From contig NZ_JAGGOF010000025.1 in the NCBI RefSeq assembly GCF_018614775.1, forward strand, positions 62,001 through 126,000: a stretch of 64,000 bases of DNA, read 5' to 3'. Source of the stretch: Pseudomonas fluorescens (lineage in GTDB: Bacteria; Pseudomonadota; Gammaproteobacteria; Pseudomonadales; Pseudomonadaceae). Made by a program: the position numbers and the translations under genes. Under the pieces are notes generated by a model. It worked only from the letters and a program-made list of their open reading frames with translations, had not been told where the DNA came from and searched no databases. The first letter of the stretch is position 1; each line of letters starts with the position of its first letter. Of this stretch, positions 1,832 to 56,649 are shown one piece after another.

Positions 1832-1839
1832 TTCACCCA

Positions 1840-1929: not shown

Positions 1930-1950
1930 TTCGTTCCTGCCAAAATTCAA

Positions 1951-1979
1951 TTGACACCCAATCATATGATGATTAGCGT
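1951..1979 (+). promoter_or_regulatory. Promoter with GntR-type dyad upstream of the GntR regulator
   Basis: A consensus -35 element TTGACA (1951-1956) is followed by the perfect palindrome ATCATATGAT (1961-1970) and GATT. The reverse complement, AATCATCATATGAT, matches the site before araF at 4620-4633 (AATCATCATACGAT) with one mismatch. A dyad inside the -35/-10 spacer suggests autorepression by the FadR-family regulator encoded just downstream. That the regulator binds here is inferred from position and from the repeated motif. Confidence 0.65.
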
Positions 1980-2012
1980 AAGCCATCTATAAGAGTGGCC
2001 CGCGGGGTTGTC

Positions 2013-3631: not shown

Positions 3632-3691
3632 ATCCCAAAATATGGGATGTAAATATATATATTGAGATTAGCTGGCGGCCGGGTTTATAGT
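3632..3691 (+). promoter_or_regulatory. Promoter plus 17-bp inverted repeat, copy 1 (upstream of sugar dehydrogenase)
   Basis: The perfect dyad ATCCCAAAATATGGGAT (3632-3648) lies 13 bases before a strong promoter, TTGAGA (3662-3667), an 18-base spacer and TATAGT (3686-3691). The same arrangement, with the same gaps, stands before dgoK at 11429-11488. The dyad centre is near -57 from the expected start site, a place used by activators. The adjacent IclR gene at 15.9 kb is the most likely regulator, but this is inference. Confidence 0.7.
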
Positions 3692-3743
3692 CGGCTCCAT
3701 CAGTAATACGCACTCACACTAAAAAAACAAAACAGGTGAAGTG

Positions 3744-4580: not shown

Positions 4581-4610
4581 ATATTCCTGGGTTGCAGTCG
4601 GAAAATTCGC

Positions 4611-4640
4611 CTGTCATCCAATCATCATACGATATGACTA
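4611..4640 (+). promoter_or_regulatory. GntR-type operator upstream of araF
   Basis: AATCATCATACGATATG (4620-4636) matches the reverse complement of the dyad in the GntR promoter (1958-1974) at 14 of 17 positions. A possible promoter, CTGTCA followed by TATGAC, overlaps it. This suggests that the GntR regulator represses the importer operon directly. The rest of the 174-base gap shows AT-rich leader sequence and the araF ribosome site AAGGAG. Confidence 0.6.
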
Positions 4641-4754
4641 TTTAGGCCTATGCTGTGTAGCAACTTGATGTAACCGTCCAGCCTGCGCTTTCCCACCCAC
4701 GGTGGAGCAGAAACTGGACGTCTGGCTTTCAATAAAAAAAACAAGGAGTCAACT

Positions 4755-5759: not shown

Positions 5760-5825
5760 CGGCTGGTTGATTCAAAAGCGGTCCTGGCAACGGGGCCGCT
5801 TGATCTCTGTGAGTTCGAGGTGGTT

Positions 5826-7370
5826 ATGCAAGCGCAAACAGCGACACAACAACACAACATCGGCGGCAGCCTGCGGTTCAACGGGATCGGCAAGACCTTT
5901 CCCGGCGTGCAGGCGCTGGCCAATATCAGTTTCGTCGCACATCCGGGGCAGGTCCATGCCTTGATGGGCGAGAACGGCGCGGGCAAGTCCACGTTGCTGA
6001 AGATCCTCGGCGGCGCCTACATCCCGAGCAGCGGCGAGCTGCAGATCGGCGAGCAGACGATGGCCTTCAAATCCACCGCCGACAGCATCGCCAGCGGCGT
6101 GGCGGTGATCCACCAGGAATTGCACCTGGTGCCGGAAATGACCGTCGCCGAGAACCTGTTCCTGGGCCATCTGCCGGCTCGCTTTGGCCTGGTCAATCGC
6201 GGGCTGCTGCGCCAGCAGGCGCTGAAGCTGCTCAAGGGCCTGGCCGATGAGATCGACCCGCAGGAAAAGGTCGGTCGCCTGTCCCTCGGTCAGCGCCAAC
6301 TGGTGGAAATCGCCAAGGCTCTGTCCCGTGGCGCCCACGTCATTGCTTTCGATGAGCCGACCAGCAGCCTTTCGGCGCGGGAAATCGATCGGCTGATGGC
6401 GATCATCGCGCGGTTGCGGGACGAGGGCAAAGTGGTGCTGTATGTCAGCCATCGCATGGAAGAGGTGTTCCGCATCTGTAACGCGGTGACGGTGTTCAAG
6501 GACGGTCGCTACGTACGCACCTTCGAGGACATGAGCGAGTTGACCCACGATCAGTTGGTCACCTGCATGGTCGGTCGTGATATCCAGGACATCTACGATT
6601 ACCGTCCCCGCGCGTGCGGCGAAGTGGCGCTGCGGGTTGATCGCCTGCTGGGTCCGGGGCTGCGTGAACCGGTGAGTTTCCAGGTGCACAAGGGTGAAAT
6701 CCTCGGGCTGTTCGGGCTGGTGGGGGCTGGTCGTACCGAGCTGCTGCGTTTGCTCAGCGGCCTGGAGCGCCAGACCGAAGGCAGCCTGGTCCTGCATGGC
6801 GAGGAACTGAAGCTGCGCTCACCTCGGGACGCCATCGGCGCCGGCGTGCTGCTCTGCCCGGAAGACCGCAAGAAGGAAGGCATCATGCCCCTGGGCAGTG
6901 TGGCCGAGAACATCAACATCAGCGCCCGCAGCAGCCATTCCACCCTCGGTTGCCTGTTGCGCGGCGAGTGGGAGCGGGGCAATGCCGACAAACAGATCAA
7001 GGCGCTGAAAGTGAAGACCCCGACGGCAGGGCAGAAAATCATGTACCTGTCCGGCGGCAATCAGCAGAAGGCGATCCTCGGTCGCTGGCTGTCGATGCCG
7101 ATGAAGGTCCTGCTGCTGGACGAGCCGACCCGCGGCATCGACATCGGCGCCAAGGCCGAGATCTACCAGATCATCCACAACCTGGCGGCCGACGGCATCG
7201 CGGTGATTGTGGTGTCCAGCGACCTGATGGAAGTGATGGGCATTTCCGACCGAATCCTGGTGCTCTGCGAAGGGGTCATGCGTGGCGAGCTGCCGCGTGA
7301 CCAGGCCAATGAATCCAACCTGCTGCAACTGGCGCTGCCACGCCAACGCGTTGCCGACGCGGCGAACTGA
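5826..7370 (+). CDS. araG: Sugar ABC transporter ATPase AraG
   Basis: A 514-residue tandem ATPase of the CUT2 sugar-import family. The first cassette has Walker A GENGAGKST, signature LSLGQRQ and Walker B VIAFDEP. The second has the altered P-loop GLVGAGRTELL usual in this family, signature LSGGNQQK and LLLDEPTRGIDIGAK. It drives uptake through AraH. I chose the ATG at 5826, placed after GAGG, rather than the GTG two codons earlier. It begins 66 bases after araF and ends nine bases before araH. Confidence 0.93.
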   Translation: MQAQTATQQHNIGGSLRFNGIGKTFPGVQALANISFVAHPGQVHALMGENGAGKSTLLKILGGAYIPSSGELQIGEQTMAFKSTADSIASGVAVIHQELHLVPEMTVAENLFLGHLPARFGLVNRGLLRQQALKLLKGLADEIDPQEKVGRLSLGQRQLVEIAKALSRGAHVIAFDEPTSSLSAREIDRLMAIIARLRDEGKVVLYVSHRMEEVFRICNAVTVFKDGRYVRTFEDMSELTHDQLVTCMVGRDIQDIYDYRPRACGEVALRVDRLLGPGLREPVSFQVHKGEILGLFGLVGAGRTELLRLLSGLERQTEGSLVLHGEELKLRSPRDAIGAGVLLCPEDRKKEGIMPLGSVAENINISARSSHSTLGCLLRGEWERGNADKQIKALKVKTPTAGQKIMYLSGGNQQKAILGRWLSMPMKVLLLDEPTRGIDIGAKAEIYQIIHNLAADGIAVIVVSSDLMEVMGISDRILVLCEGVMRGELPRDQANESNLLQLALPRQRVADAAN

Positions 7371-7379
7371 GAGGTAATC

Positions 7380-8348
7380 ATGACCATTCAAAACAATGCA
7401 CTGCCAACGGCACGCAAACCCCTGGACCTGCGTCGTTTCCTCGATGACTGGGTCATGCTGCTGGCGGCCATCGGCATCTTCGTGCTCTGCACCCTGATGA
7501 TCGACAACTTCCTGTCGCCGTTGAACATGCGAGGCCTGGGCCTGGCCATTTCCACCACCGGCATCGCCGCCTGCACCATGTTGTATTGCCTGGCGTCCGG
7601 GCACTTCGACTTGTCGGTCGGCTCGGTAATTGCCTGTGCCGGCGTGGTCGCCGCCGTGGTAATGCGCGACACCAACAGCGTGTTCCTCGGTGTCAGTGCG
7701 GCGCTGGTGATGGGGCTGATTGTCGGCCTGATCAACGGCATCGTCATCGCCAAGCTGCGGGTCAATGCGTTGATCACCACGCTGGCAACGATGCAGATCG
7801 TTCGCGGCCTGGCCTACATCTTCGCCAACGGTAAAGCGGTGGGCGTGTCCCAGGAGTCGTTCTTCGTGTTCGGCAACGGCCAGATGTTCGGGGTCCCGGT
7901 GCCGATCCTGATCACCATCGTCTGCTTCCTGTTCTTCGGCTGGTTGCTGAACTACACCACCTACGGGCGCAACACCATGGCCATTGGTGGCAACCAGGAA
8001 GCGGCGTTGTTGGCGGGTGTTAACGTTGATCGCACCAAGATCATCATCTTCGCCGTGCACGGCGTGATCGGCGCCCTGGCCGGGGTGATCCTGGCTTCGC
8101 GCATGACCTCGGGCCAGCCGATGATCGGCCAGGGCTTTGAACTGACCGTGATCTCGGCCTGCGTGCTGGGCGGGGTGTCGTTGAGCGGCGGTATCGGCAT
8201 GATTCGCCATGTGATTGCCGGGGTGCTGATCCTGGCGATCATCGAAAACGCGATGAACCTGAAGAACATCGACACCTTCTACCAATACGTCATCCGCGGC
8301 TCGATCCTGCTGCTGGCCGTGGTGATCGACCGCTTGAAGCAACGCTGA
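7380..8348 (+). CDS. araH: Sugar ABC transporter permease AraH
   Basis: A 322-residue inner-membrane permease with about eight to ten hydrophobic segments. Family motifs include LASGHFDLSVGSV, the coupling segment NTMAIGGNQEAALLAGV and VLGGVSLSGGIG. It forms the channel for the AraF/AraG importer. The start follows GAGGTAATC. It is the last gene of the operon; a run of REP palindromes follows and may end or stabilise the transcript. Confidence 0.93.
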   Translation: MTIQNNALPTARKPLDLRRFLDDWVMLLAAIGIFVLCTLMIDNFLSPLNMRGLGLAISTTGIAACTMLYCLASGHFDLSVGSVIACAGVVAAVVMRDTNSVFLGVSAALVMGLIVGLINGIVIAKLRVNALITTLATMQIVRGLAYIFANGKAVGVSQESFFVFGNGQMFGVPVPILITIVCFLFFGWLLNYTTYGRNTMAIGGNQEAALLAGVNVDRTKIIIFAVHGVIGALAGVILASRMTSGQPMIGQGFELTVISACVLGGVSLSGGIGMIRHVIAGVLILAIIENAMNLKNIDTFYQYVIRGSILLLAVVIDRLKQR

Positions 8349-8370
8349 AAGCTGCATTGCCCGGGCGGGC

Positions 8371-8590
8371 CCCTTCGCGGGCAAGCCCGGCTCCCACAGG
8401 ATTCTGTGCCGGCCAAAGTTCTCTTGTGGGAGCCGAGCTTGCTCGCGATGAGGCCGGCAAATCCAACACCAAAGTAACCTGAGCCACCGCTATCGCGAGC
8501 AGGCTCGCTCCCACAGGTTTATGTGCCAATCCCAAAACCGGGGTATGCCATGTAACCCTGTGGGAGCGAGCCTGCTCGCGATGGCGTCAT
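8371..8590. repeat. Cluster of four REP palindromes
   Basis: Four REP units alternate in orientation: about 8375-8399, 8425-8457, 8487-8516 and 8558-8586. The last two carry the exact GAGCCTGCTCGC core, while the first two carry variants (AAGCCCGGCTCC and GAGCTTGCTCGC). Two REPINs of different subfamilies appear to have landed next to each other. The whole gap between araH and the next gene is made of these. Confidence 0.88.
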
Positions 8591-8605
8591 CCCTGACGCC
8601 AACCC

Positions 8606-8986
8606 TCACCCAGCCTTGCGCAACGCCTCAACCAACTCCTGCTTACGCATTTTCGAACGCCCGGGAATGTTCTTCGCCCGGGCTTCCTTCATCAGGCTGT
8701 CCACCGTCTGCGTTCCATGAGAGGCCTTGCTGCTGCGCGGATGACCTTCACGGGTCTTGGCAGCGCGGCGGGCGGATTCCTTGCGATCGGTGTTCTTCTC
8801 AGCGGCCGGTTTCTCCTTCCCCGAACCGCCGGAGCGTTCGCCGCCGCCCGACTGCTTGTTCACCGTCGCCCAAGCGCGGGCTTCGGCCTTGTCTTCGGAC
8901 AAGCCCTTCTTCTCGTAGCTTTCTTCGATGTGCTCGGCCTTGCGCTTTTGCTCGGTGGTGTATTTGTCTTTGCTTCCACGAGGCAT
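8606..8986 (-). CDS. Small basic protein with a C-terminal Rho-N/SAP-like segment
   Basis: A 126-residue, very hydrophilic and basic protein. The N-terminal half is Lys/Glu-rich (KYTTEQKRKAEHIEESY, GLSEDKAEARAWATVNK). A Gly/Ser/Lys linker follows, and the C-terminal ~35 residues (VDSLMKEARAKNI, MRKQELVEALRKA) look like the helix-extended-helix fold of Rho N-terminal/SAP DNA- or RNA-binding domains. Such proteins are often labelled plasmid stabilisation proteins in Pseudomonas without functional proof. Start is well supported by AGGAGGAAGACCTC. It may be a stress-related nucleic-acid-binding protein; that is inference. Confidence 0.7.
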   Translation of the reverse strand: MPRGSKDKYTTEQKRKAEHIEESYEKKGLSEDKAEARAWATVNKQSGGGERSGGSGKEKPAAEKNTDRKESARRAAKTREGHPRSSKASHGTQTVDSLMKEARAKNIPGRSKMRKQELVEALRKAG

Positions 8987-9016
8987 GAGGTCTTCCTCCT
9001 CTTGTGTGAGCAGAGG

Positions 9017-9364
9017 CTACTGGCTGGCGCCGCCGCCTTCGGAACCCGAACCACCGGTGGTGGTTTTCGAGCCCACGCCGGTCTCGGCGTTATCGGGTGC
9101 GGTAGAGTCCGGGGTGTTCATCCCGCCCTGGCGACCCGTGTCATTGCCTTGCACCCGCGGATCGGTACCGGTGGCCGGAGGTTGACCATTGTTCAAGGTG
9201 CCGCCGCCGGTTCCGTCGGTGTTCAACTTGGGCAGGCCTTGCGTGGCCGGAGAGTTGGGCGCCGGCACCGGGTCGGTCGGCCCGGTGCCGGAAGTGGTCG
9301 CCGCGAACGCCGCCGAAGAGAGCAGCGTGGCAAGTGTGAATGCAGTCAGCCTTGAAGTGATCAT
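9017..9364 (-). CDS. Secreted low-complexity Gly/Thr/Pro-rich protein
   Basis: A 115-residue protein with a clear signal peptide (MITSRLTAFTLATLL, cleavage near AFAA). The mature part is almost wholly Gly, Thr, Pro, Ser, Asn and Asp with no hydrophobic core, so it should be disordered. The start follows GGAGGCGACACC. The previous gene in the same direction ends up downstream of it with about 30 bases between, so the two may be co-transcribed. I do not recognise a family and no function can be given. Confidence 0.65.
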   Translation of the reverse strand: MITSRLTAFTLATLLSSAAFAATTSGTGPTDPVPAPNSPATQGLPKLNTDGTGGGTLNNGQPPATGTDPRVQGNDTGRQGGMNTPDSTAPDNAETGVGSKTTTGGSGSEGGGASQ

Positions 9365-9446
9365 GGTGTCGCCTCCATTTTTTTGAATGCTTGCCTGATC
9401 TTGGGCTGCGCCCGAGCCGCGGGGTGCCTTGGCGGCGACGAATGGT

Positions 9447-10103
9447 CTAATCGCTCAGGCCGGCTTCCTCCATGAACTGGCTGAGGAAGTCTTTGAGTCG
9501 CTCGTGGCGGATCAGCGCCATACGTTGTCCCGTAGCGGTCTGGAAGCCATCGCACAGGTGCAACAATTTGGTCTGGAAGTGATCGAGGCAGTAACGCCTG
9601 TCGTCATAATCCCTGGAGATGGCCAAAGGGTCCTGAGGGTCATAGAGAACGCTGCCCATGCGTCCGGCGACGTAAAACGTCCGGGCAACGCCGAGCAAGC
9701 CCAGTGAGTCGAGGCGATCAGCGTCCTGGAGGATTTTTGCCTCCAGCGTGACTGCAGCAATATTGGCTGAAAAGCTGTGAGCTTCAATGGCATGGGCAAC
9801 GGCGCTGATTTTTTCGCCGGGCCAGTCGAGTGTGGACAACAGCGTCGCTGCTTTGTCCGCCGCCAGGCGAGATGCCTGGTCGCGCAACGGCGAATTCTTT
9901 TCCAATGCCACACAGTCGTGCAGCAATGTTGCCGCGAGGAGGATGGACATATCGCCGCCTTCATGGCGCTCAAGTGCGCGAACGTTGCTCCAGACCCGTT
10001 GCAAATGCGACAGATCGTGAGCGCCGTCCCCGGAAGGTTCCAGCGCATGGGGCAGCAGTTGAGTGGCTAGGGCCTGCAATGGAGCGAAGTCGGCAGCGAA
10101 CAT
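9447..10103 (-). CDS. HD-domain metal-dependent phosphohydrolase
   Basis: A 218-residue protein of the YedJ-like HD superfamily. Metal-ligand motifs are visible: GAHDLSHLQRV (first His), LLHDCVALEK (HD), AIEAHSFSA and AKILQDADRLDSLG. The fold is known to hydrolyse phosphate esters or nucleotides; the substrate here is unknown. I place the start at the ATG at 10103, which has GAGGAACTGTC before it. The ORF is open 18 codons further, but that start has no ribosome site. Confidence 0.82.
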   Translation of the reverse strand: MFAADFAPLQALATQLLPHALEPSGDGAHDLSHLQRVWSNVRALERHEGGDMSILLAATLLHDCVALEKNSPLRDQASRLAADKAATLLSTLDWPGEKISAVAHAIEAHSFSANIAAVTLEAKILQDADRLDSLGLLGVARTFYVAGRMGSVLYDPQDPLAISRDYDDRRYCLDHFQTKLLHLCDGFQTATGQRMALIRHERLKDFLSQFMEEAGLSD

Positions 10104-45824: not shown

Positions 45825-47111
45825 TTAGCGCTGGACGGGCCAGGTCATGCGCAAGGAAGCGCCGCCCAAAGCCGAATCCCCCGCTTGCACCTGGCCTCCA
45901 TGGGACTGCGCGACGCGACGCACCAGCGCCAGCCCCAGGCCGAATCCTCCGGTGCGCCGATCACGACTGGTGTCGAGCCGCGAGAACGGTTCAAAAATCT
46001 TCTCCCGCCCCTCTACCGGTACACCCGGACCATCGTCGTCGACCTGCAACCGATAGTGATCAGCGTTGCGCAACAGCGATACGTGGACGTGACCGTCGGC
46101 ATAACGAATGGCGTTGCGCAGCAGATTGATCACTGCCCTGGCCATGAAGCGCGGTTCGATGTCGAACGTCTCGACCTGGCAGGCCACCACACGCACCTCG
46201 ATGTGACCGGCCTCGGCCTCCAGCGTGACACTGGCGACCACGCTGTCCAGCCAGCTACTGGCTTCGATGCGTTGCAGGCTGATTGCCGTCGCACCGTGTT
46301 CCAGGCTGGCGTAAGTCAGCAGCTCGGAAACCATGTCTTCCAACTCACCGAGGTCTGCGTACATGTCATCGATCAATTGACGGGCATTGGCAGGATCCTG
46401 GCATTGCTTGAGCTGGTCGAGTTCGAAGTTCAGGCGTGCGATGGGCGTGCGCAGCTCATGGGAGACCGCATTGGTCAGTTCTCGCTGGTTGGCGATCAGG
46501 CCTTCGATGCGCGCGGCCATGAGGTCGAAATGCCCGGCTACTTCGCTGATGCTGGAACGCTGGGACATGCGGACCCGCGCTGATAGATCATTGTCCCCGA
46601 AGCGTTGTGCGGCCAGGCGCAGCCTTTCCAGGTCGCGCCAGTGTGGACGCACCCAGAAGAACAGAATGATGCCCACCAATACCGCCAGCATCAGGTAGGC
46701 GGCGCCGATGTAAAACGGTATGAAGTTGGGCTCGAGCGGCAGCTTGAGGCTCAGCAATTGATTGCCGTTGTCGATGCGGCTGAAGAGCTGCGTGTACTTG
46801 TCACGCAGCACCAGTTTGTTATCGGCCAGTAACTTTTTCTCGGCGTCGCTCAGTGCCAGCTGATCGGCTTGTACCAGCGCCAACTCAAGGCCGGAATCAG
46901 GACGCAAGGCCTCCAGTTGCTGTTCTCGCTGTTCGCCATGCACATCGCGCAGTTGCTTGACCAAGGCCTGCGCCTGCCCGCGAAACGACTCGCGGTGGAA
47001 GGTCTGCATCTGCCCGTCGAGCAGCGCATCGAAAGTATGCTCGACCGCCTGCAATGCCAGGACCAGGCCGATTGCGAGCATCAGATACAGGCCAAGGAAA
47101 AGGCGCAGCAT
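45825..47111 (-). CDS. Sensor histidine kinase (RstB-like)
   Basis: A 428-residue inner-membrane kinase. Order: a helix at residues ~3-23, a ~110-residue periplasmic sensor domain, a second helix (~132-153), HAMP, then the phosphoacceptor SHELRTPIARLNFELDQL, and the ATPase domain with NLLRNAIRYADGHV (N box), VDDDGPGVP (G1) and GGFGLGLALVRR (G2). It begins directly after the response regulator's stop with no gap. The periplasmic domain is rich in acidic residues, as in sensors of cations or peptides. Confidence 0.92.
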   Translation of the reverse strand: MLRLFLGLYLMLAIGLVLALQAVEHTFDALLDGQMQTFHRESFRGQAQALVKQLRDVHGEQREQQLEALRPDSGLELALVQADQLALSDAEKKLLADNKLVLRDKYTQLFSRIDNGNQLLSLKLPLEPNFIPFYIGAAYLMLAVLVGIILFFWVRPHWRDLERLRLAAQRFGDNDLSARVRMSQRSSISEVAGHFDLMAARIEGLIANQRELTNAVSHELRTPIARLNFELDQLKQCQDPANARQLIDDMYADLGELEDMVSELLTYASLEHGATAISLQRIEASSWLDSVVASVTLEAEAGHIEVRVVACQVETFDIEPRFMARAVINLLRNAIRYADGHVHVSLLRNADHYRLQVDDDGPGVPVEGREKIFEPFSRLDTSRDRRTGGFGLGLALVRRVAQSHGGQVQAGDSALGGASLRMTWPVQR

Positions 47112-47828
47112 CTACAATTCCCAGGCGAAGGGGTTGAACAGGTAGCCCTTGCCCCAGATGGTCTTGATACACACCGGTTCGCGTGGATTGTCCTTGAGCT
47201 TGCCCCGCAGTTTGCTGATATAGACATCGACACTGCGGTTCATGCCATCGAAGGCAATGCCACGCATCTGATTGAGAATGTCATCACGGGACAACGTTAA
47301 TCCAGCATTGTCCGCCAGCAGCCAGAGCAGTTCGAATTCCATGGTGGTGAGTTCGATCAGCTCGCCGGCCAGGCGTGCTTCACGGCAGGTCCGGTCGATC
47401 GTCAGGCGGCCGAATTCCAGGACACTCCCGGCGGTGCTTTGTGGCGTATGGCGGCGCTGCAAGGCGCGCAGGCGTGCAAGCAGCACAGGGGGCTTGATGG
47501 GCTTGATCACATAGTCATCGGCGCCGGACTCCAGGCCGAGGATATGGTCCAGGTCGTCCTCCCTGGCGGTGAGGATGACGATCGGTGTATCGCTGAGTGC
47601 GCGAATCTCCCGGCAGACGTGCAAGCCACTCTGGCCGGGCAGCATGAGATCAAGAACAACCATCGTCGGTTTGAACTCGATGAACGCGCCCAGGGCAAGG
47701 TCGCCTCGGTGCACTTCACGTACGTCAAAGCCATGTTGCGCGAGGAAACTTGCGATCAACCCGCTGAGCTTTTCGTCGTCCTCCACCAGCAAGACTTTGC
47801 CCGAACCCGAGTCATCCATAATGACCAT
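47112..47828 (-). CDS. OmpR-family response regulator (RstA-like)
   Basis: A 238-residue regulator: receiver domain with acidic pair VEDDEKL, phosphoacceptor Asp in VVLDLMLPG and the switch lysine in DDYVIKPIKP, then a winged helix (LTTMEFELLWLLADNAGLTL, RSVDVYISKLRGKLKDNP, IKTIWGKGYLF). The ATG at 47828 is chosen; a GTG precedes it and an ATG at 47819 is possible. It forms a two-gene operon with the kinase. The convergent mipA gene is a plausible target. Confidence 0.92.
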   Translation of the reverse strand: MVIMDDSGSGKVLLVEDDEKLSGLIASFLAQHGFDVREVHRGDLALGAFIEFKPTMVVLDLMLPGQSGLHVCREIRALSDTPIVILTAREDDLDHILGLESGADDYVIKPIKPPVLLARLRALQRRHTPQSTAGSVLEFGRLTIDRTCREARLAGELIELTTMEFELLWLLADNAGLTLSRDDILNQMRGIAFDGMNRSVDVYISKLRGKLKDNPREPVCIKTIWGKGYLFNPFAWEL

Positions 47829-47921
47829 CACTCACGCTGAAAAAGTGCGTGCATTATGCCGTCAAGCCGCTGCCGAGACTATTGCCGCCGGTGACAAAAC
47901 GCGCTGAACAGGGCGGGTAAG

Positions 47922-48908
47922 TCAGGTATTCAACGGCAACTGCGGCGTATCCGGATTCAACTGCTGCTTTCTGAATTGCCCCGGCGGCTGCCCGTGGATC
48001 TGCCGAAAGCGCCGGGAGAAATAGGCCTCGTCGGCAAACCCGCACAACCGCGCCACTTCACCCACCGGGCGCGTTCCATTGAGCAGATAGTTGCGTGCCG
48101 CGTGCATCCGTCGCTCCAGCACCAGTTCGGTGAAGGTCTTGCCGATTTCCTTGCGCAGCCAGTGGGTCAGGTAGGTCGGTGACAGGTAAGTCGCGGCCGC
48201 CACCTTGATCAGGTTGAGGTCGGGGTCGGCGATGTTCTTGCGCAGGTATTCGGACATCCGGCCCAACGCATCGCGGCGACTGACTTCGGCGGCATTCTCT
48301 TCCGCCAACCGTTTGAGCGGTTCGGCGTAGAGGGTGCAGACACTGCCGATCAATTGCAGCAACAGGCCCTTGAGCATCTCGCGGGTGCCGAACTGGCGAT
48401 TTTCATCGAGCAGGCGCATCTGCTCGATCAGGCCGCAGACCCGGGCGAAATCCTCATCGCCCAGGATGAAGTCCAGGTGTTCCTGGAAGCGGAAGGGCGA
48501 CAACTCCGGTGCCAGCAGAATCGACACTTCCTCCAGGTCCATCGGGTCGCACTGCAAATGCGGCAGCAGGAAGGTCTGGGAAAAGTTGATCACCATGAAG
48601 TTGCTGTTGGCCGGGTGCGGGATCACATGCACCCGGTGGGGCAGGATGAAGGCCAGGGTATTGCGCGGGAATGGACGTTCGGCGTTGCCGACGTGTTGCA
48701 CCGTATCGCCGCCCAGGTTGATCTGGATCTGAAAGTACTCATGGCGATGGGGGCTGGTTTCGGCGCGCCGTCCCTTCTTGTCGCGGATGTAGAAGTCCGT
48801 CAATTCACTGCGCTGCTGCATGACATAGGTGGGGACTCGGCTCGGTGCGGGCATCTCCTGGGAATCCTCTACGGGTACATGGCGATGGCTGTGATTGTGA
48901 GCGCGCAT
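47922..48908 (-). CDS. AraC-family regulator of the adjacent sugar-acid operon
   Basis: A 328-residue regulator: an N-terminal cupin sensor (SPHRHEYFQIQINLGGD, LAFILPHRVHVIPHP), a linker of helices, and a C-terminal double helix-turn-helix (LIKVAAATYLSPTYLTHWLR; VGEVARLCGFADEAYFSRRF). It is divergent from the MFS-FAH-SDR-dehydrogenase operon with 509 bases between, so it very likely controls that operon. In-frame ATGs further in exist, and none has a clear ribosome site, so the start is uncertain. Confidence 0.87.
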   Translation of the reverse strand: MRAHNHSHRHVPVEDSQEMPAPSRVPTYVMQQRSELTDFYIRDKKGRRAETSPHRHEYFQIQINLGGDTVQHVGNAERPFPRNTLAFILPHRVHVIPHPANSNFMVINFSQTFLLPHLQCDPMDLEEVSILLAPELSPFRFQEHLDFILGDEDFARVCGLIEQMRLLDENRQFGTREMLKGLLLQLIGSVCTLYAEPLKRLAEENAAEVSRRDALGRMSEYLRKNIADPDLNLIKVAAATYLSPTYLTHWLRKEIGKTFTELVLERRMHAARNYLLNGTRPVGEVARLCGFADEAYFSRRFRQIHGQPPGQFRKQQLNPDTPQLPLNT

Positions 48909-49417
48909 CCGACTGACTTACAAGGAGTTATACGATGAGAGGTCCTGTGCGTGAGTTTTTGGTGTTCTCCGGGTAGAAGATGGTTGTCCAAAACCATTAA
49001 TCCGCATTTGAAGAATTTCTCTTTTTAAAACAGTGAGTTGTGAGTTATGTAAAAAGGCTCTAAAAAAACCAGCTGATTTGTATTTTTTGGACAGGGCCCA
49101 TCCGTGTAGCTTCGAGCGAAAAAAACGATCTAACGCTTCGGTTGATTTTGAATGGTTGTACGACCACTGTAAGGCCACGCAACCGACGCTTATCCAAAAA
49201 CAATCAAGAGGTGCGCTCATCATGAAGCGGTTTCCATTACTCGCTGACCCTCCCGACGTTTCCCACGGCACAGCCTGTTGCGCGGTGTCTTGCACCGTCT
49301 GACACCGGCGGTTCGCATTTCTCATTCCAGTAGCAATCGTGCTGCCCCGACATCGAGGGCAACGGCTTCGGCTGCTCGTAAACATTTCGACGCTTCTAAC
49401 AATAACGAGGTCTACTC
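48909..49417. promoter_or_regulatory. Long AT-rich divergent control region with hairpin
   Basis: The part 48980-49150 is strongly AT-rich and probably contains the operon promoter and AraC sites. AAGGAGTTATACGATG (48922-48937) could start a 13-codon ORF ending at 48976. GGTGTC (49286-) and GACACC (-49309) form a hairpin near the end of another short ORF (49222-49302). A leader this long before an AraC-controlled operon leaves room for control after initiation. Confidence 0.45.
49222..49302 (+). CDS. Possible 26-residue cysteine-containing leader peptide
   Basis: ATG 49222 has AGAGGTG ten bases before it and encodes MKRFPLLADPPDVSHGTACC followed by six more residues (AVSCTV) and a stop. Three cysteines cluster at the C-terminal end. 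A hairpin overlaps the end of the ORF and the MFS gene begins 115 bases later, so attenuation is possible. Nothing beyond the ribosome site supports translation. Confidence 0.3.
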   Translation: MKRFPLLADPPDVSHGTACCAVSCTV

Positions 49418-50767
49418 ATGTCGAATTCCCACACCTCCCAGACCACCGCCGCGCCGGTGATCACCGGCGCCCGGGACGCTGCAGTGCCGCAGCGACTGCC
49501 GTCGCGGCGGCGCTGGTTCATGCTGTCGTTGCTGTTGATCGCGACCATCATCAACTACATCGACCGGGTGAATATCTCGATTGCTGCACCGTTCCTGGCC
49601 AAGGACCTGGGCCTGGACAAGATTGAAATGGGCCTGATCTTTTCCGCCTTTGCCTGGACTTATGCACTGGCATTGGTGCCCGCCGGGTTCATTGCCGACC
49701 GCTTCGGTTCCCGCTTCACCTACGGGGTGTCGCTGATCAGTTGGTCGACCGTCACCGTGTGCCAGGGTTTCGCCACGGGGTTTGCCTCATTGTTCGGGCT
49801 ACGCCTGGCGGTGGGCGCGATGGAAGCGCCGGCATTTCCGGCCAACAGCCGGGCGGTCACGGTGTGGTTCCCGGCGCGCGAGCGGGGCATGGCGAGCAGT
49901 ATCTACGTCTGCGGCCAATACCTGGGCACGGCGCTGTTTACTGGCGCGCTGCTTTGGCTGGCAACGACCTACGACTGGCGGCATGTTTTCTACAGCACCG
50001 GCGCCCTCGGTGTCGTGTTTGGCGTGGCCTGGCTGTACCTTTATCGCGACCCGATGAACTGCAAGAAAGTCAGCAAGGAAGAGTTGAAGTACATCGAAGC
50101 CGGGGGCGGGCTGGTCAAGAGCAGCCAGGAGCGCACCCGCTTCAACTGGCGGCAGATTACGGAGCTGTTCAGCTACCGTCAGGTCTGGGCGATCTGTATC
50201 GGTAAGTTCGCCAGCACCTCGGCGCTGTACTTTTTCCTCACATGGTTTCCGACCTACCTGATCGAAGAGCGTCAACTGACCATGATCAAGGCCGGAATTT
50301 TCGCCGTGCTGCCGTTCGTGGGCGCGACCGTCGGCATCCTGCTGGCGGGGATCGTCTCCGACCTGTTGATTCGCCGTGGCTATTCGCTGTCCTTCGCACG
50401 CAAGTTGCCCCTGGTGGTCGGATCGATGCTGGGCATGTCCATTGTCCTGGTGAATTTCACCGATTCGAACGTGATCTGCATTGCCATCCTGACCATCGCC
50501 TTCTTCGCCCAAGGCATCGCCTCGTCCTCGTGGGCGGCGGTCTCGGAAGTGGCGCCCAAGGAACTGATCGGGCTGACTGGCGGCGTCACCAGCCTGGCCG
50601 CCAACATCGGCGGCATTGTCACCCCCATCGTGATCGGCGCGATCGTCCACAAGACCGGCTCGTTCGCCCTGGCCTTCTGGTTCATCGGCGGCGTGGCGCT
50701 GATCGGCACGTTGTCCTATTCGTTGTTGCTCGGCCGCCTGTATCGCATTGAACTCAAGGCGCGCTGA
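49418..50767 (+). CDS. MFS transporter, ACS family (sugar-acid/carboxylate importer)
   Basis: A 449-residue 12-helix carrier. ATIINYIDRVNISIAAPFLA, AFAWTYALALVPAGFIADRF, GAMEAPAFPANSRAVTVWFP and TSALYFFLTWFPTYLI are blocks shared with the galactonate-type carrier at 14522 in this window. These transporters bring in hexonates, glucarate, tartrate and similar acids with protons. The start is at ATG 49418, behind AACGAGGTCTACTC. It is first in a four-gene operon with an FAH-family hydrolase, an SDR and a 2-hydroxyacid dehydrogenase. Confidence 0.9.
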   Translation: MSNSHTSQTTAAPVITGARDAAVPQRLPSRRRWFMLSLLLIATIINYIDRVNISIAAPFLAKDLGLDKIEMGLIFSAFAWTYALALVPAGFIADRFGSRFTYGVSLISWSTVTVCQGFATGFASLFGLRLAVGAMEAPAFPANSRAVTVWFPARERGMASSIYVCGQYLGTALFTGALLWLATTYDWRHVFYSTGALGVVFGVAWLYLYRDPMNCKKVSKEELKYIEAGGGLVKSSQERTRFNWRQITELFSYRQVWAICIGKFASTSALYFFLTWFPTYLIEERQLTMIKAGIFAVLPFVGATVGILLAGIVSDLLIRRGYSLSFARKLPLVVGSMLGMSIVLVNFTDSNVICIAILTIAFFAQGIASSSWAAVSEVAPKELIGLTGGVTSLAANIGGIVTPIVIGAIVHKTGSFALAFWFIGGVALIGTLSYSLLLGRLYRIELKAR

Positions 50768-50873
50768 GTCAAGAAAACCGTTTTTCTCCAAGACGAGGCG
50801 GCATTCCTCCAACTTCACCCGGGATTGCCGCCGTACGCTGACACCACCAACAGGACTTTTTACCAGGATGAAC

Positions 50874-51560
50874 ATGCCCGAGTACGTCTTTACCCCGGAC
50901 CTGCCAGTGACTTTGCCGGTGGTCGGCACCCCGCAGCGTTTTCCCGTCGGCCGGGTGTTTTGTGTCGGTCGCAACTACCCATGGCCAGACAGCCAAGGCC
51001 AGAACCGCCAGCCACCGGTGTTCTTCATGAAGCCGGCCAGCACGGTGGTGGATGCGGTCGGTGAAGTGCCGTATCCGTCGGTGACGGAAGAGTTCGTCCA
51101 CGAAATCGAATTGGTCGTGGCCATCGGTGAGGGCGGCGCGAACATTCCCGAGAGCCAGGCGCTGGCTTATGTCTGGGGCTACGCCGCCGGGCTTGATCTG
51201 ACCCGGCGCGATGTCCAGCGCATGGCCAAGCGCAACGGCTTGCCTTGGGAGGGCGCAAAGGTGTTCGACGCAGCGGCGCCAATGACCGCCATCGTGCCGG
51301 TCTCACGGGCGGGGCACCCAGACGGCGAGTTGTGGTTGAGCGTGAACGGCGAAGAGCGCCAGCGCGACAGCCTCGACAGCCAGATCTGGTCGGTCAGCGA
51401 AATGATCAGTCGCATTTCCCAGTCGGTGGCATTGCGGGCCGGCGACCTGATCATGACCGGCAGCCCGGCTGGCGTCGATCTGCTGCAACCGGGTGACGTC
51501 ATCACCGCCGGCATCGATGGCATTGGCCAGCTGGAAATGAGCATCGGTCAAAGGCCTTGA
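50874..51560 (+). CDS. Fumarylacetoacetate hydrolase (FAH)-family protein
   Basis: A 228-residue FAH-fold enzyme. [12 protein letters not shown] starts the catalytic domain, [14 protein letters not shown] follows, and the metal ligands are in [15 protein letters not shown] (two Glu) and further Asp residues ([12 protein letters not shown]). FIGP-type ending [16 protein letters not shown] is normal. Size is that of fumarylpyruvate hydrolases and acylpyruvases, which cleave C-C bonds of 2,4-diketo acids. Beside an SDR, a role on a 2,4-diketo-3-deoxy sugar acid is plausible but unproven. The ATG at 50874 follows AGGATGAAC. Confidence 0.87.
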
Positions 51561-51600
51561 TCCCGCGCCCGTCAAATTGATTCGAGAAAGGAACAACAAC

Positions 51601-52359
51601 ATGCCCAACCCATTGAAAGTGGCTTTGGTCACCGGTGCCGGCAGCGGAATTGGCCGTGCGGTGGCCCTGGGGCTCATAGCCGACGGCTACACGTTGGTAT
51701 TGGCCGGTCGCCGGCCAGAACCCTTGCAGGCCTTGGTCGAGCTGGCGGCCTGCGAAGAGCGCGAAGCCCTGGCGGTGCCCACCGATGTGCGTGACCCGGC
51801 CAGTGTCGATGCCCTGTTCGCCACCATTGCCGAGGCTTACGGCCGTCTGGACGTCGTGTTCAACAACGCCGGGGTCAACGCGCCCGCCGTGCCGCTGGAT
51901 GAGTTGACGTTCGAGCAGTGGCGCAACGTCATCGACACCAACCTCAACGGCGTTTTCCTCTGCGCCCGTGGCGCCTTCGGCCTGATGCGCCGGCAACAGC
52001 CACAAGGTGGGCGGATCATCAACAACGGTTCGATCTCGGCCCATACCCCACGGCCTTTCAGCAGTGCCTACACCGCCAGCAAGCATGCGGTGCTGGGGTT
52101 GACCAAATCCCTGGCGTTGGACGGGCGCGAATACAACATTGCCTGCAGCCAGATCGACATCGGCAACGCCCTCACCGAAATGTCGGTGCGCATGACCAAA
52201 GGCGTGCGCCAGGCCAACGGCAACATCGCGGTAGAGCCGATGGTCGACGTCAAGCACGTGGCCGATGCCGTGCGCTATATCGCCGGCCTGCCGTTGTCGG
52301 CCAACGTCCTGAACATGACTGTCATGGCCACGGCCATGCCGTTTGCCGGCCGCGGTTGA
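51601..52359 (+). CDS. SDR-family oxidoreductase
   Basis: A 252-residue classical SDR: cofactor motif [18 protein letters not shown] after strand 2 (the Arg pair favours NADP), [10 protein letters not shown], catalytic Ser in INNGSISAH and [11 protein letters not shown]. Unusual is the segment [14 protein letters not shown] after the catalytic strand. Starts 40 bases after the FAH gene behind GAAAGGAACAACAAC. SDR/FAH pairs occur in non-phosphorylative sugar-acid pathways where the SDR oxidises C4 of a 2-keto-3-deoxy acid. That role here is inference. Confidence 0.88.
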
Positions 52360-52391
52360 GCCGGCGTTTTTATTCGTTTGATGAGGTCCAC

Positions 52392-53348
52392 ATGAAGCCA
52401 GAAGTCTTGCAGCTCAGCCCGATCCTGATCCCAGAAATCAACACCCGGCTCAGCGAGCTGTTCACGGTGCGGCGCTATTTCGAACAGGCCGACAAACCGG
52501 CGTATTTGCAGGCGCACGGCGCCAACATTCGCGGCGTGATCACCGGCGGGCACACCGGCATCAGCCAGGCGATCATGGCGCAGTTGCCGAAACTGGAAGT
52601 GGTGGCGGTCAACGGCGTGGGCACTGACGCCGTTGACCTGGCTTACGCCCGGGACCGCGGCATCCGCGTCACCGCCACCATCGGCGCGCTGACCGAGGAC
52701 GTCGCCGACCTGGCCATGGGCCTGTTGATCGGCGTCTGCCGTGGCCTGTGCACCGGTGACCGTTACGTGCGCTCCGGCCAGTGGCCACAGAGCCCAACCC
52801 CCTTGGCACCGCTGCCGCTGGCGCGCCAGGTATCCGGCATGCGCATCGGCATCGTCGGCATGGGCCGGGTCGGTCGCGCCGTGGCGACCCGCGCGGCGGC
52901 GTTCGGCTGCCCGATCAGCTACACCGATCTGCAGCCGATGAGCGACGTGCCTCACACCTTCGTCGCCGACCTCAAGCAACTGGCGGCCGGCAGCGACGCC
53001 CTGATCCTGGCGGCGGCCGCCGATAAGGCCGAAGCCATCATCAACGCCGAGGTGTTGCAAGCCCTGGGCAAGGGCGGTTACCTGATCAACGTGGCCCGGG
53101 GCAAACTGGTCAACGAGGTCGACCTGGTCGCGGCGCTGGCGGCCGGTGATATCGCCGGCGCCGGGCTGGATGTGTTCGTCGATGAACCCAACGTACCCGA
53201 AGCGCTGTTCGGCCATGAGCACGTGGTGCTGCAACCCCATCGCGCCAGCGCGACATTGCAGACCCGCACGCGGATGGGAGAAATGGTCGTGGCAAGCCTG
53301 GTGGACAGTTTCGCCGGGCGCGTACCGCAGGGGTGTGTAACGGGCTGA
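52392..53348 (+). CDS. D-2-hydroxyacid dehydrogenase (GhrB/hydroxypyruvate-reductase type)
   Basis: A 318-residue enzyme of the D-isomer-specific family. Cofactor motif GIVGMGRVGRAVA, catalytic Arg in LINVARGKLV, Glu in FVDEPNVPEAL and His in VVLQPHRASATLQTRTRM. The chain uses a short N-terminal substrate domain (GANIRGVITGGHTGI, VVAVNGVGTDAVDL). It reduces glyoxylate, hydroxypyruvate or another 2-keto acid, or works in the other direction. It is last in the operon, 32 bases after the SDR; the convergent binding-protein gene begins four bases beyond its stop. Confidence 0.88.
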   Translation: MKPEVLQLSPILIPEINTRLSELFTVRRYFEQADKPAYLQAHGANIRGVITGGHTGISQAIMAQLPKLEVVAVNGVGTDAVDLAYARDRGIRVTATIGALTEDVADLAMGLLIGVCRGLCTGDRYVRSGQWPQSPTPLAPLPLARQVSGMRIGIVGMGRVGRAVATRAAAFGCPISYTDLQPMSDVPHTFVADLKQLAAGSDALILAAAADKAEAIINAEVLQALGKGGYLINVARGKLVNEVDLVAALAAGDIAGAGLDVFVDEPNVPEALFGHEHVVLQPHRASATLQTRTRMGEMVVASLVDSFAGRVPQGCVTG

Positions 53349-54171: not shown

Positions 54172-55146
54172 CTAACGCCCATTGGCGTTCGCGGGTGGAA
54201 CTGGACCGGACGTCAGGATGATTCGAACGGCCATGATCACGCCGATCAGGACGGCGGCAAGGCCCGAGGCTTCCAGTGGTGTCGGCAGTCGATGATGAAA
54301 TCCCAAGCCAAGTAGCGTGGCGAACAGTGACTCCAGTGCTATCAATTGCCCGGACAATACCATAGGCAGACGACGTGACGCGGCGTTCCAGGCCCAGGCG
54401 CCGACGACGGATGACATGAGGGCGATGACAAAGGCCCAGAGGTACAAATCTCCAGCCAGAGAAAAACTGAAACCCAGGCTCGGTAATTTGAGAAGCCCGA
54501 GCGTCTGTATGGCCGGTAACAGGCACAAGGTGCCCAAGCCGGCGCCTGCCATCATCAGGCCGGTCCAGGCGCCTGACGCGTTGTGTGGAAGTTTTGACGA
54601 CGCGCGCTGGTTCAATACGCTGAATATCAGCCACAAGGCAACGGCACCGATTGAAAAAAACAATCCCATCAGCCAGGAGTCATCGTTGGCAATGGGTTGA
54701 TTGATCGCGCCGAGATTCGTCAGTAAAAGTCCAGTCGTCAGGACAGCCAGCGGGATCGCGAGCTTGCGCCACTGGATGGTTTTTGCGCTGGCATTGCCGA
54801 GCAACGCGAGCAGGGCCGGCACCATTCCAATCAATGCCGGGGTCAGTACCGGCCCACCAAAAATGATGCCTGCGGCGATGCACGCGCTATAACCCAGATA
54901 CCCGATCACACCCAGGCCTGCCGCCAGCAACCACTGATCACGGCGCAAGAGACGAAGCTGGACTTGATAGCGAATCATGAACGCCAAGCCCAGGGCGCCT
55001 GCGATCAGAAACCGCACGACCATCAAGTCGTAGACGGTGTAGGCACCGGTGACGTACGGTGCAATGAAGTTCAGGGCCCAGCTCAACGTCGCGATCACCG
55101 CGAGGATCACGCCAACGACAACGCTTGAATAGGCCTGGACCCTCAC
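54172..55146 (-). CDS. EamA-family (DMT) exporter
   Basis: A 324-residue inner-membrane protein with ten predicted helices in two EamA repeats. VVGVILAVIATLSWALNFIA begins helix 1, and MVVRFLIAGALGLAFMI and the second-repeat segment YLWAFVIALMSSVVGAWAWN are typical. The GTG start at 55146 overlaps the stop of the DUF3916 gene (GTGA) and has GGGGAACC before it, so translation is coupled. Members export amino acids, metabolites or metallophores. The DapF-like gene is divergent and close. Confidence 0.87.
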   Translation of the reverse strand: MRVQAYSSVVVGVILAVIATLSWALNFIAPYVTGAYTVYDLMVVRFLIAGALGLAFMIRYQVQLRLLRRDQWLLAAGLGVIGYLGYSACIAAGIIFGGPVLTPALIGMVPALLALLGNASAKTIQWRKLAIPLAVLTTGLLLTNLGAINQPIANDDSWLMGLFFSIGAVALWLIFSVLNQRASSKLPHNASGAWTGLMMAGAGLGTLCLLPAIQTLGLLKLPSLGFSFSLAGDLYLWAFVIALMSSVVGAWAWNAASRRLPMVLSGQLIALESLFATLLGLGFHHRLPTPLEASGLAAVLIGVIMAVRIILTSGPVPPANANGR

Positions 55147-55643
55147 GCGGGTTCCCCGATACACCACCAGTGGACATCGACCTCATCGTCGCGCTGGGTG
55201 GCGTCATGCCCATGCTCAATGAATGAGTCGGGCAGAACCAGGGCAAGCTTTTCGCTCAAACGTAGCGGAGCCAGGGTGTTGTGCTGCCCCAGAAAACCCA
55301 GGTAATAGTCACGGTCATAAAACACCGTGACTTCACTCTGGTGCACCCAGGGCCACACCAGCAGGCAGGCGACGCGGTAATAACCTTGGCCGCGATCCGC
55401 CGCACGGGATAAATGGGCCGCAGCTTCGAGCGACTGTTGCACACAGAAGGCCTGTACTTCGATGGGCGCTTGCGAGCCCTGCACCAGGCAAGTGTGTACC
55501 GGGATTTTCCAGTGGGTGAACCGCTGGTCCTCATAGCTGCGAGGATAGTAGTTACCGTTGAACCTCACGGCCCAGCGCTCCAAGGCACGGAGACGGCGGG
55601 GGATGCCCCGAAGTTTTTTGTTGCTGAGGGCCAGTCTGCGCAA
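55143..55643 (-). CDS. DUF3916-like protein
   Basis: A 166-residue soluble protein with no signal peptide. KLRGIPRRLRALERWAVRFN and HWKIPVHTCLVQGSQAP, then YYRVACLLVWPWVHQSEVTVFYD, agree with the DUF3916 family as I recall it; its function is unknown. It is the first gene of a coupled pair with the EamA exporter and starts divergently from the DapF-like gene, with 202 bases between. Joint action with the exporter is suggested only by the coupling. Confidence 0.65.
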   Translation of the reverse strand: MRRLALSNKKLRGIPRRLRALERWAVRFNGNYYPRSYEDQRFTHWKIPVHTCLVQGSQAPIEVQAFCVQQSLEAAAHLSRAADRGQGYYRVACLLVWPWVHQSEVTVFYDRDYYLGFLGQHNTLAPLRLSEKLALVLPDSFIEHGHDATQRDDEVDVHWWCIGEPA

Positions 55644-55845
55644 GGGATGTCCTTATGGTGCTCTGCGGGAGTGAACGTTCGGGTAGCCGTTATAGCTTCT
55701 TTCACTGCCTCCTTACGGAACAAAATCATCGATTGGAACGGGTAGCTTAGTGCTAGGGTCGTCTGGCTTCAATGTCCTCACTGACAGCGTCAACGCATGA
55801 ACAGCAGACTTTCATGCGCCACTTCATCCCCTGAAGAACATTCCC

Positions 55846-56649
55846 ATGCCGCTGAAATTTCACAAGATGCACGCCAACGGCGATGACTTTGTCATCGTCG
55901 ACTCGCGGAACTCGGCCAATCCAATCACCAGCGCCTTGGCTCGGCGGATGGGTGATCGGAACCGGGGGATCGGTTTCAATCAACTGGCAGTGCTGCTCGA
56001 TTGCAACGATGCCGATGCGCGTGTGGTGTTCTGGAATGCCGATGGTTCTGCGCTGGACGTTTGTGGCAGCGCAACGCGAGGTGTTGCGGACCTGCTCATG
56101 CGCGAATCAAATGCCACTTCGATAACGCTGCGCACCCACCGTGGTTTGCTCGCTTGCGAGCGAACCACCGTCGGGACAATTTCCGTCGCCATGGGCCAGC
56201 CGCTTTTTGGCTGGTCGGACGTGCCCCTCGCTCGGGAGTTGGATACCCTTGTTTTACCCCTTGCCGGCGATCCAGCCGCTTGCAGCATGGGTAATCCGCA
56301 TTGCACTTACTTTGTGGATGATCTGGCAGTCATTGATATAGCGAGAACGGGGCCAGCCATCGAAACCAACGCGCTGTTTCCCCTCAAAACCAATGTACAT
56401 TTCGTCCAGGTCATCAACCGTCAGCACATTCGATTGCGCATATGGGAGCGTGGCGGCGCGATTGCGCTGGGTTCGGGTTCCTGCTCGTGTGGTGCTGTTG
56501 TTAACGGGATTCGCCGGGGCTTGCTGGACGGCTGCGTTGAGGTTGAATGCGATGGGGGAAGCGTGACGGTTAGATGGGACGGCGTGGGGAGTGTTTTTCT
56601 TGCGGGACCGGTGGAGAGCGTTTTTTCAGGAACGATGTCCTGTGAATAA
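55846..56649 (+). CDS. Diaminopimelate-epimerase-fold racemase (DapF paralogue), second cysteine missing
   Basis: A 267-residue DapF-fold protein. MPLKFHKMHANGDDFVIVDS opens it (DapF has GNDF, here GDDF). The first catalytic Cys is kept in ADGSALDVCGSATRG, and the substrate residues in SMGNPHCTYF, LKTNVHFVQV and WERGG are kept. In true DapF the second catalytic Cys sits in GETLACGTG; here the text is AIALGSGSCSCG, with Leu or Ser at that place, though a Cys follows four residues on. It is probably not the housekeeping DapF. It may act on another amino acid. Divergent from DUF3916/EamA. Confidence 0.75.
   Translation: MPLKFHKMHANGDDFVIVDSRNSANPITSALARRMGDRNRGIGFNQLAVLLDCNDADARVVFWNADGSALDVCGSATRGVADLLMRESNATSITLRTHRGLLACERTTVGTISVAMGQPLFGWSDVPLARELDTLVLPLAGDPAACSMGNPHCTYFVDDLAVIDIARTGPAIETNALFPLKTNVHFVQVINRQHIRLRIWERGGAIALGSGSCSCGAVVNGIRRGLLDGCVEVECDGGSVTVRWDGVGSVFLAGPVESVFSGTMSCE

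Follow-up and report, generated by a model that had tools for sequence, protein, structure and literature searches.

A conserved Pseudomonas operon that joins a dyad-less FAH-family protein to two dehydrogenases and a sugar-acid-type transporter

The closest described counterparts of the locus reported here are the Route III pathways, in which an L-KDR, L-KDF or KDP 4-dehydrogenase is combined with a 2,4-diketo-acid hydrolase (PMC6336799, PMC11199699). A five-gene operon at positions 47922-53348 of a 64,000-nucleotide stretch of Pseudomonas fluorescens DNA (contig NZ_JAGGOF010000025.1; the whole stretch is called the window) shares with these pathways a short-chain dehydrogenase/reductase (SDR) and a protein of the fumarylacetoacetate hydrolase (FAH) family, together with a sugar-acid-type transporter and a regulator. 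However, the FAH protein of this operon has 230 residues and lacks the His-Glu pair, hereafter the dyad, that is present in the Route III enzymes of 284-296 residues. Moreover, the unit carries a D-2-hydroxyacid dehydrogenase (HADH) and neither a dehydratase nor a lactonase, and its SDR stays below the listed family cut-offs.

Three other systems invite comparison. The oxaloacetate tautomerase-decarboxylases FAHD1 and YcgM share with the FAH protein of the unit a fold, as judged from a structural model, the residues of the metal site and, by motif spacing, a D-R-Q-K set, but they differ from it in that the FAH studied here has no dyad, has an invariant tryptophan (Trp39) after GRNYx and is encoded in a catabolic-type operon. 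The nearest solved structures, at 46-50% identity, are the (putative) fumarylpyruvate hydrolases of the NagK type, 4maq and 6j5y, both of which keep an H-A-R-E stretch and belong to a different gene context. Finally, relatives of the SDR, the HADH and the major facilitator superfamily (MFS) transporter lie in or beside aldarate clusters (GarD, GudD, KdgD) of a few Betaproteobacteria, whereas the Pseudomonas unit itself contains no dehydratase and the GudD gene of this genome is on another contig. The parts of the unit are members of known families; no description of the unit or of its route was found in the open-licence literature searched, and none of six terms looked up occurs in a GapMind paper (PMC9007349).

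A compact five-gene unit in Pseudomonas

An initial annotation, made from the sequence of the window, had described an AraC/MFS/FAH/SDR/HADH operon at this site, and its coordinates and Pfam families are confirmed as follows.

47922..48908, minus strand: AraC-family regulator, divergent from the catabolic genes (Pfam)
49418..50767, plus strand: MFS transporter (Pfam; NCBIfam TIGR00893, D-galactonate transporter subfamily)
50868..51560, plus strand: FAH-family protein, 230 amino acids, dyad-less (Pfam; the start is taken at the ATG of 50868, whereas the list of open reading frames has an upstream TTG)
51601..52359, plus strand: SDR dehydrogenase/reductase, 252 amino acids (Pfam)
52392..53348, plus strand: D-2-hydroxyacid dehydrogenase (HADH), GhrB/hydroxyphenylpyruvate-reductase-like, 318 amino acids (Pfam)

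The gaps between the four plus-strand genes are 100, 40 and 32 bases. All five genes are found in the same order and orientation in 67 of the 69 Pseudomonas loci longer than 9000 bases that carry this type of FAH, a count from which L108 was left out as a dyad-bearing paralogue. The two exceptions are L062, whose contig starts just before the MFS gene so that AraC is out of view, and L094 (Pseudomonas fluorescens PS862), where no MFS match was obtained and the matches to AraC, FAH, SDR and HADH are partial; the operon in this strain looks broken. Neighbouring genes were clustered under a codon-periodicity filter, with clusters in fewer than six loci or with poor periodicity not reported, and the commonest extra neighbour cluster to pass the filter occurs in 12 loci. 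Because no other neighbour exceeds this number, the unit is discrete and is found in many contexts. The five genes therefore form one compact unit whose conservation goes beyond chance.

When 199 Pseudomonas genomes were sampled, 47 (about a quarter) were found to bear the operon. These were chosen by FAH identity, leaving out the paralogue of G067 and counting a split copy in G034, and for eight of them (G034, G077, G189, G157, G068, G024, G152 and G085), whose neighbours were not fetched, FAH identity is the sole basis. The named relatives of the FAH at an identity of at least 60% are from Pseudomonas.

The unit probably imports a compound akin to a sugar acid and converts it. The transporter scores 398.4 bits against a cut-off of 395 for the NCBIfam D-galactonate transporter subfamily and has the D-galactonate transporter 6e9n as its closest solved sequence. 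The initial view of a self-contained, sugar-acid-type unit for uptake and conversion is supported. The FAH protein scores 175.5 bits against Pfam PF01557 (cut-off 23.9), and the generic SDR reaches no NCBIfam cut-off among the matches listed (25 of 221 families). The description of the last enzyme as GhrB-like stands insofar as it resembles GhrB and glyoxylate reductases, yet it scores far under those NCBIfam equivalog cut-offs. That the operon holds no dehydratase, as had been stated, was borne out by the list of open reading frames and a Pfam scan, which likewise reveal no dioxygenase or isomerase in the unit; no aldarate gene (GarD, GudD, TalrD or KdgD) was found in the window.

Loss of the dyad from the FAH protein

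The FAH proteins encoded together with an HADH and an SDR (the trio) share an altered active-site motif. They read GRNYxW (GRNYPW in the window) where other family members have GRNYxxHxxE, and the stretch after the motif is shorter. An alignment of 137 rows was built from 122 trio proteins and 15 from other contexts; near-identical rows were kept, while window duplicates (L003, L005, L119), the partial L094, the distant L001 and L159 and matches shorter than 190 residues were left out. The dyad histidine is present in none of the 122 trio rows (103 distinct), its position being occupied by Pro in 91, Ser in 15, Gly in 8, Gln in 4, Thr in 2, Asp in 1 and Arg in 1, and Trp39 is present in every one. 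Both dyad residues are kept in all 15 of the other rows, which come from FAH-AraC pairs, gentisate-type clusters, Caulobacter and Uliginosibacterium copies and a YcgM-like copy in the same genome as the window; the excluded L001 and L159 proteins also both keep HxxE. At the same time E79, E81, D110, R114 and K131 are found in 122 of 122 trio rows and Q117 in 121. Matched by motif spacing at a constant offset of 8, residues 79, 81, 110, 114, 131 and 117 correspond to FAHD1 residues 71, 73, 102, 106, 123 and 109, of which we take Glu73 to be a metal ligand. Both features of FAH superfamily membership, the PF01557 domain and the acidic residues of the metal site, are thus present.

What step might such a protein carry out? 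In a Herbaspirillum diketo-acid hydrolase the catalytic pair is His83/Glu86 (PMC6336799), and the FAHD1 dyad is His30/Glu33 (PMC8398924). In the theoretical analysis of the latter work the dyad activates water for hydrolysis, and K123/D102 and Q109 serve ketonisation and decarboxylation. The FAHD proteins tested in PMC10825186, which include E. coli YcgM, show strong keto-enol tautomerase activity on oxaloacetate, decarboxylation being minor, and the D102A R106A double mutant has less than 0.1% of the tautomerase activity; decarboxylation is held to be central for FAHD proteins in PMC12176266. The equivalents of D102 and R106 that FAHD-type tautomerases need are present in the trio proteins, by motif spacing, as D110 and R114. 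Since both residues that split substrates are gone, the FAH protein may perform a different step from the one that its family name states. The initial annotation had already noted that this protein is shorter than described diketo-acid hydrolases (230 residues against 284 NCBIfam model positions and 296 in 8gsr) and that its chemistry may differ, a suspicion that the loss of the dyad supports.

The dyad-less proteins also group together. A maximum-likelihood tree of 66 rows, obtained by thinning close Pseudomonas rows from the alignment, places 51 dyad-less FAHs on one side of one branch (support 96/87), next to the dyad-bearing FAH-AraC pairs. Such pairs were seen in other Pseudomonas (L108-L114): the FAH there has the dyad and is 55-60% identical, and the adjacent AraC gene encodes a product 61-63% identical to that of the window; no MFS, SDR or HADH matches were found at these pairs. 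The AlphaFold2 model of the window protein (pLDDT 90.3) predicts a NagK/FAHD1-like fold, with a TM of about 0.8 against FAHD1, and its confidence falls below 50 at residues 36-44, the former lid.

Catalytic residues are intact in both dehydrogenases. Residues N114, S144, Y157 and K161 of the SDR, as well as G36-R37-R38, are present in all 131 aligned rows (107 distinct, at least 70% identity, window included), and R236, E265, H283 and D179 of the HADH in all 115 (113 distinct, at least 60% identity, window included). The first three of these HADH residues match the Arg-Glu-His arrangement that we take to be the catalytic set of 2-hydroxyacid dehydrogenases, and D179 presumably marks an NAD-type position. 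A motif of the G36-R37-R38 type is assigned to NADP by the rule in PMC11199699. The two enzymes therefore appear to be of opposite cofactor types, the SDR of the NADP type and the HADH of the NAD type.

Relatives outside Pseudomonas and their neighbours

Family searches around two trio-bearing genomes listed 71 places, 40 of which were selected for spread; the label betaproteobacterial was given to them from kinship and from named Comamonas and Cupriavidus records. Of these loci, 13 hold HADH, SDR and FAH, five hold HADH and SDR, and 22 hold an HADH relative only (four of the latter under the 60% limit for HADH). A class-wide HADH search matched one of 369 genomes, that of the window. The order in Comamonas, Cupriavidus and apparent relatives is HADH-FAH-SDR followed by a binding protein of the tripartite tricarboxylate transporter (TTT) type, and in some cases another TTT gene comes after HADH. 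The trio there has another transporter and regulator than the Pseudomonas unit. Two loci (L224, L225) have the order FAH-AraC-SDR-HADH-TTT, with an AraC protein 55-59% identical to that of the window. Many betaproteobacterial HADH-FAH-SDR units are divergent from a citrate-synthase-like protein that begins, by eye, with a helix-turn-helix-like segment. Such proteins (L149 6765-7931, L150 6737-7921, L153 11641-12888 and others), which in Burkholderia stand at the end of an SDR-MFS-VOC run instead, are possibly metabolite-sensing regulators.

The five loci with HADH and SDR are informative about the role of the FAH protein. Four of them consist of HADH, SDR and TTT genes (L233, L243, L253, L256) and one of SDR-HADH (L238), and no FAH was detected in any of these loci even at E 1, the search covering the loci and not the rest of the genomes. 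A route that depended on C-C cleavage could scarcely do without the enzyme for it, whereas aid to a slowly spontaneous tautomerisation or decarboxylation could be optional. For this reason we take the apparent dispensability of the FAH to count against a hydrolytic role.

Genes for galactarate, glucarate or talarate use adjoin relatives of the unit in four of the 40 loci, namely one of the 13 full trios (L225), one of the five HADH-SDR pairs (L238) and two of the 22 HADH-only loci (L236, L257). The richest is L238, in a 2.0-Mb genome, where GarD, divergent from a LacI-like gene, is accompanied by KdgD, SDR (74%), HADH (66%), TTT proteins, GudD and an aldehyde dehydrogenase, with GarD, KdgD and GudD all above their NCBIfam cut-offs. 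An L-talarate/galactarate dehydratase, above its cut-off, is separated by one TTT gene from the HADH (70%) of L236; GarD and KdgD lie near an HADH and an MFS protein that are 62% and 64% identical to those of the window in L257; and GarD is about 5 kb from the complete FAH-AraC-SDR-HADH set of L225. In 3 of 39 genomes a GarD above its cut-off occurs within about 7 kb of HADH, where about 0.09 would be expected (a rough, after-the-fact Poisson estimate puts P at about 1e-4). A search for co-occurring dehydratases had been suggested by the initial annotation; aldarate genes were found near relatives in these four loci, and none of those searched for in the other 36.

Within Pseudomonas, a GudD-related gene, an MFS gene and a LysR-like gene (by eye) stand just past AraC in two lineages (P. 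grimontii L081, L103). L081 is apparently the same contig as L266; the GudD relative there reaches 260 bits where the cut-off is 829, and its substrate is therefore unsure. KdgD was found in 46 of the 47 operon-bearing genomes and in 121 of the 152 others (Fisher P 0.0013, uncorrected for kinship); of the 32 genomes negative for KdgD 20 were listed, and all 47 operon-bearing genomes could still be placed. The genome of the window has both GudD and KdgD.

Relatives of the SDR were also found in tetronate clusters, which we count in favour of the reading preferred below: in Rhizobium L154 the relative (64%) ends a cluster annotated threonate/erythronate, and in L179 one follows a D-erythronate-dehydrogenase relative. 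Among the loci from one SDR search the trio is present in L161 and L162 only, the neighbours at the other loci having been compared with the query set alone. Plasmid records were covered to the extent of 40 of 165 and 40 of 212 matches. In the Burkholderia loci L153 and L157, SDR (63%) and MFS (53-56%) relatives precede a VOC gene and the citrate-synthase-like gene; HADH is divergent there and FAH is absent.

The surroundings of the operon in the window vary between strains. A two-component pair that best matches RstA/RstB in NCBIfam, below the equivalog cut-offs, lies beside it at 45825-47831, and relatives of this pair are on the opposite side of the operon in L035. Downstream, at 54172-56649, are an EamA gene, a DUF3916 gene and a diaminopimelate-epimerase gene (TIGR00652, above cut-off), which recur singly or jointly within a few kb of the operon in other Pseudomonas (L042, L046, L048, L060, L068, L091). 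The downstream DapF, DUF3916, EamA and substrate-binding protein (SBP) genes were considered as members of the unit and rejected, being near the operon in some loci only.

Possible routes and their meaning

A fundamental question is what route these enzymes would serve. We lean towards the view that the FAH protein is not a hydrolase and that the route is centred on a 2-oxo acid. The fuller reading that we favour, which is plausible though short of probable, is that an acid of the aldarate class or another hydroxy-dicarboxylic acid is converted via a 2-oxo acid by two dehydrogenases, with the FAH protein as a tautomerase or decarboxylase. The MFS protein, under the control of AraC, would bring in an aldarate-class sugar acid, hydroxylated and (di)carboxylic. 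One dehydrogenase would make the 2-oxo acid, with the HADH interconverting D-2-hydroxy acid and 2-oxo acid using NAD. The FAH protein would then move a proton at C3 of the 2-oxo acid, as a keto-enol tautomerase and possibly a C3 epimerase, or would decarboxylate it, with no C-C hydrolysis, and the other dehydrogenase would reduce the product, the SDR acting on a carbinol/ketone with NADP. The HADH would possibly oxidise and the SDR reduce, the opposite of the direction first proposed. In this scheme substrate class, direction, FAH activity and cofactor use are inferences, whereas the gene set and its conservation, the loss of the dyad, the retained residues, the single branch, the FAH-less variants and some aldarate neighbours are observations.

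If no carbon is lost, the net reaction would be a redox-neutral isomerisation or epimerisation, and the isomeric aldarate would enter the GudD/GarD-KdgD route encoded elsewhere. Such a redox isomerisation would run downhill because an NAD oxidation is paired with an NADPH reduction. This aldarate-isomerisation form is possible but on balance rather unlikely. A little less likely still is its most specific version, an epimerase module for rare aldarates in which the dyad-less FAH has turned into a C3 tautomerase/epimerase and the second dehydrogenase, with the other cofactor, re-reduces at the changed configuration.

Several observations weigh against this reading. The 36 betaproteobacterial loci without any searched aldarate gene include 12 of the 13 full trios, and two of the four with such genes (L236, L257) hold HADH without SDR and FAH. 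The association with KdgD is uncorrected for kinship, and one genome (G001) has the operon and no KdgD. A TTT system for galactarate/glucarate is reported in Halomonas (PMC5812351); according to the same paper, Betaproteobacteria have TTT binding proteins in such numbers that the presence of TTT genes says little. The cofactor types rest on single positions. Water held by the dyad is proposed to help ketonise the product as well (PMC8398924), so that loss of the dyad might weaken tautomerisation too, and another base could still let a dyad-less FAH hydrolyse. Lastly, Azospirillum argentinense plasmid p5 (L159) carries an SDR relative (62%) at a distance of about 6 kb from a CtBP-like HADH and an FAH that is longer and has the dyad; all three enzyme families are thus present there, with a normal FAH. 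This locus (1075-9744) also contains a TRAP transporter and a lactonase-like gene near the SDR relative; the set resembles a hydrolytic one and favours a diketo-acid route in that organism.

The main rival, itself unlikely, is a route from tartrate (a C4 aldarate) to D-glycerate, in which the SDR would give oxaloglycolate/dihydroxyfumarate, the FAH protein would tautomerise and decarboxylate it to hydroxypyruvate, and the HADH would reduce the latter. Tartrate dehydrogenase, oxaloglycolate reductase and dihydroxyfumarate decarboxylase activities exist. FAHD1-type proteins are described as acting on oxaloacetate, whose 3-hydroxy form is oxaloglycolate, and the HADH belongs to the glyoxylate/hydroxypyruvate reductase group. 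The citrate synthase fold binds oxaloacetate, and a citrate-synthase-like gene is the divergent neighbour of many betaproteobacterial units. An isomerase gene scoring 302.6 against a cut-off of 325 (2-oxo-tetronate isomerase) adjoins the related FAH-AraC pair in one of five loci listed (L113). The genome of the window has a MOFRL glycerate kinase followed by an apparent pyruvate kinase (by eye), but no homologue of this kinase was found at E 1e-15 in the other loci compared, many of which are short; a glycerate kinase beside the unit, which would have favoured this route, was therefore rejected. FAH-less variants would moreover require another decarboxylase. Because glycerate kinase neighbours are lacking and the nearby dehydratases are of the C6 type, the form without loss of carbon is favoured over the tartrate form.

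Less probable again is a reductive assimilation of keto or diketo sugar acids, such as 2-keto- or 2,5-diketo-aldonates, where the MFS protein would import the acid, the HADH would reduce the 2-keto group, the SDR another keto group, and the FAH protein would clear enols. GhrB-type enzymes are 2-ketoaldonate reductases, the SDR has an NADP-type motif, and HADH relatives (52-66%) stand with MFS relatives (42-44%) beside a LysR-like gene (by eye) without SDR or FAH in L099 (12689-15035), L254 and L260, two-gene units that perhaps serve keto-acid uptake and reduction. However, the nearby dehydratases above cut-off act on aldarates, not aldonates, and the FAH would have only a secondary part. In the route first proposed for this operon, which corresponds to Route III in PMC6336799, a 2-keto-3-deoxy sugar acid would be oxidised at C4 by the SDR, and hydrolysis of the 2,4-diketo acid by the FAH would yield pyruvate together with a hydroxy acid. 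Such clusters are described in that paper, and the pairing of SDR and FAH with a sugar-acid-type transporter, the superfamily of the FAH and the Azospirillum locus all speak for it. We nevertheless regard this route as improbable, and marginally more so than the reductive one, since the dyad is gone in all 122 trio proteins, the five FAH-less loci keep HADH and SDR, the SDR stays under every NCBIfam cut-off among the matches listed and the HADH has no evident part in such a route. Activity on fumarylpyruvate, named at the outset as the outcome that would speak against a sugar-acid route, is not favoured either. A gentisate-type pathway with the FAH protein as a fumarylpyruvate hydrolase (NagK) is very improbable: the closest solved structures, 49% and 46% identical, are indeed called (putative) fumarylpyruvate hydrolases, but the dyad is retained in the FAHs from clusters of the gentisate type (L115, L117, L118, identified by eye), which fall on another part of the tree, and the unit offers AraC, MFS, SDR and HADH genes rather than a dioxygenase or isomerase. 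Metasaccharinic acids, to be processed by HADH, then SDR, then a hydrolase with no dehydratase, were dropped as substrates because the dyad is lost; a literature search for them gave no paper.

The favoured reading, a 2-oxo-acid route with a non-hydrolytic FAH protein, bears on how this family is named and studied. Fumarylacetoacetate hydrolase is the name routinely given to FAH-family proteins, and the dyad-less clade suggests that it may mislead. As a conserved group encoded with two dehydrogenases, this clade is a natural experiment on how the hydrolase, decarboxylase and tautomerase chemistries separate. The unit points to what is probably a sugar-acid route in about a quarter of the sampled Pseudomonas and in several apparently betaproteobacterial genera. 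A redox-isomerisation module, if true, would give the FAH superfamily a new function, by which an otherwise unusable aldarate would be funnelled into the GudD/GarD-KdgD route.

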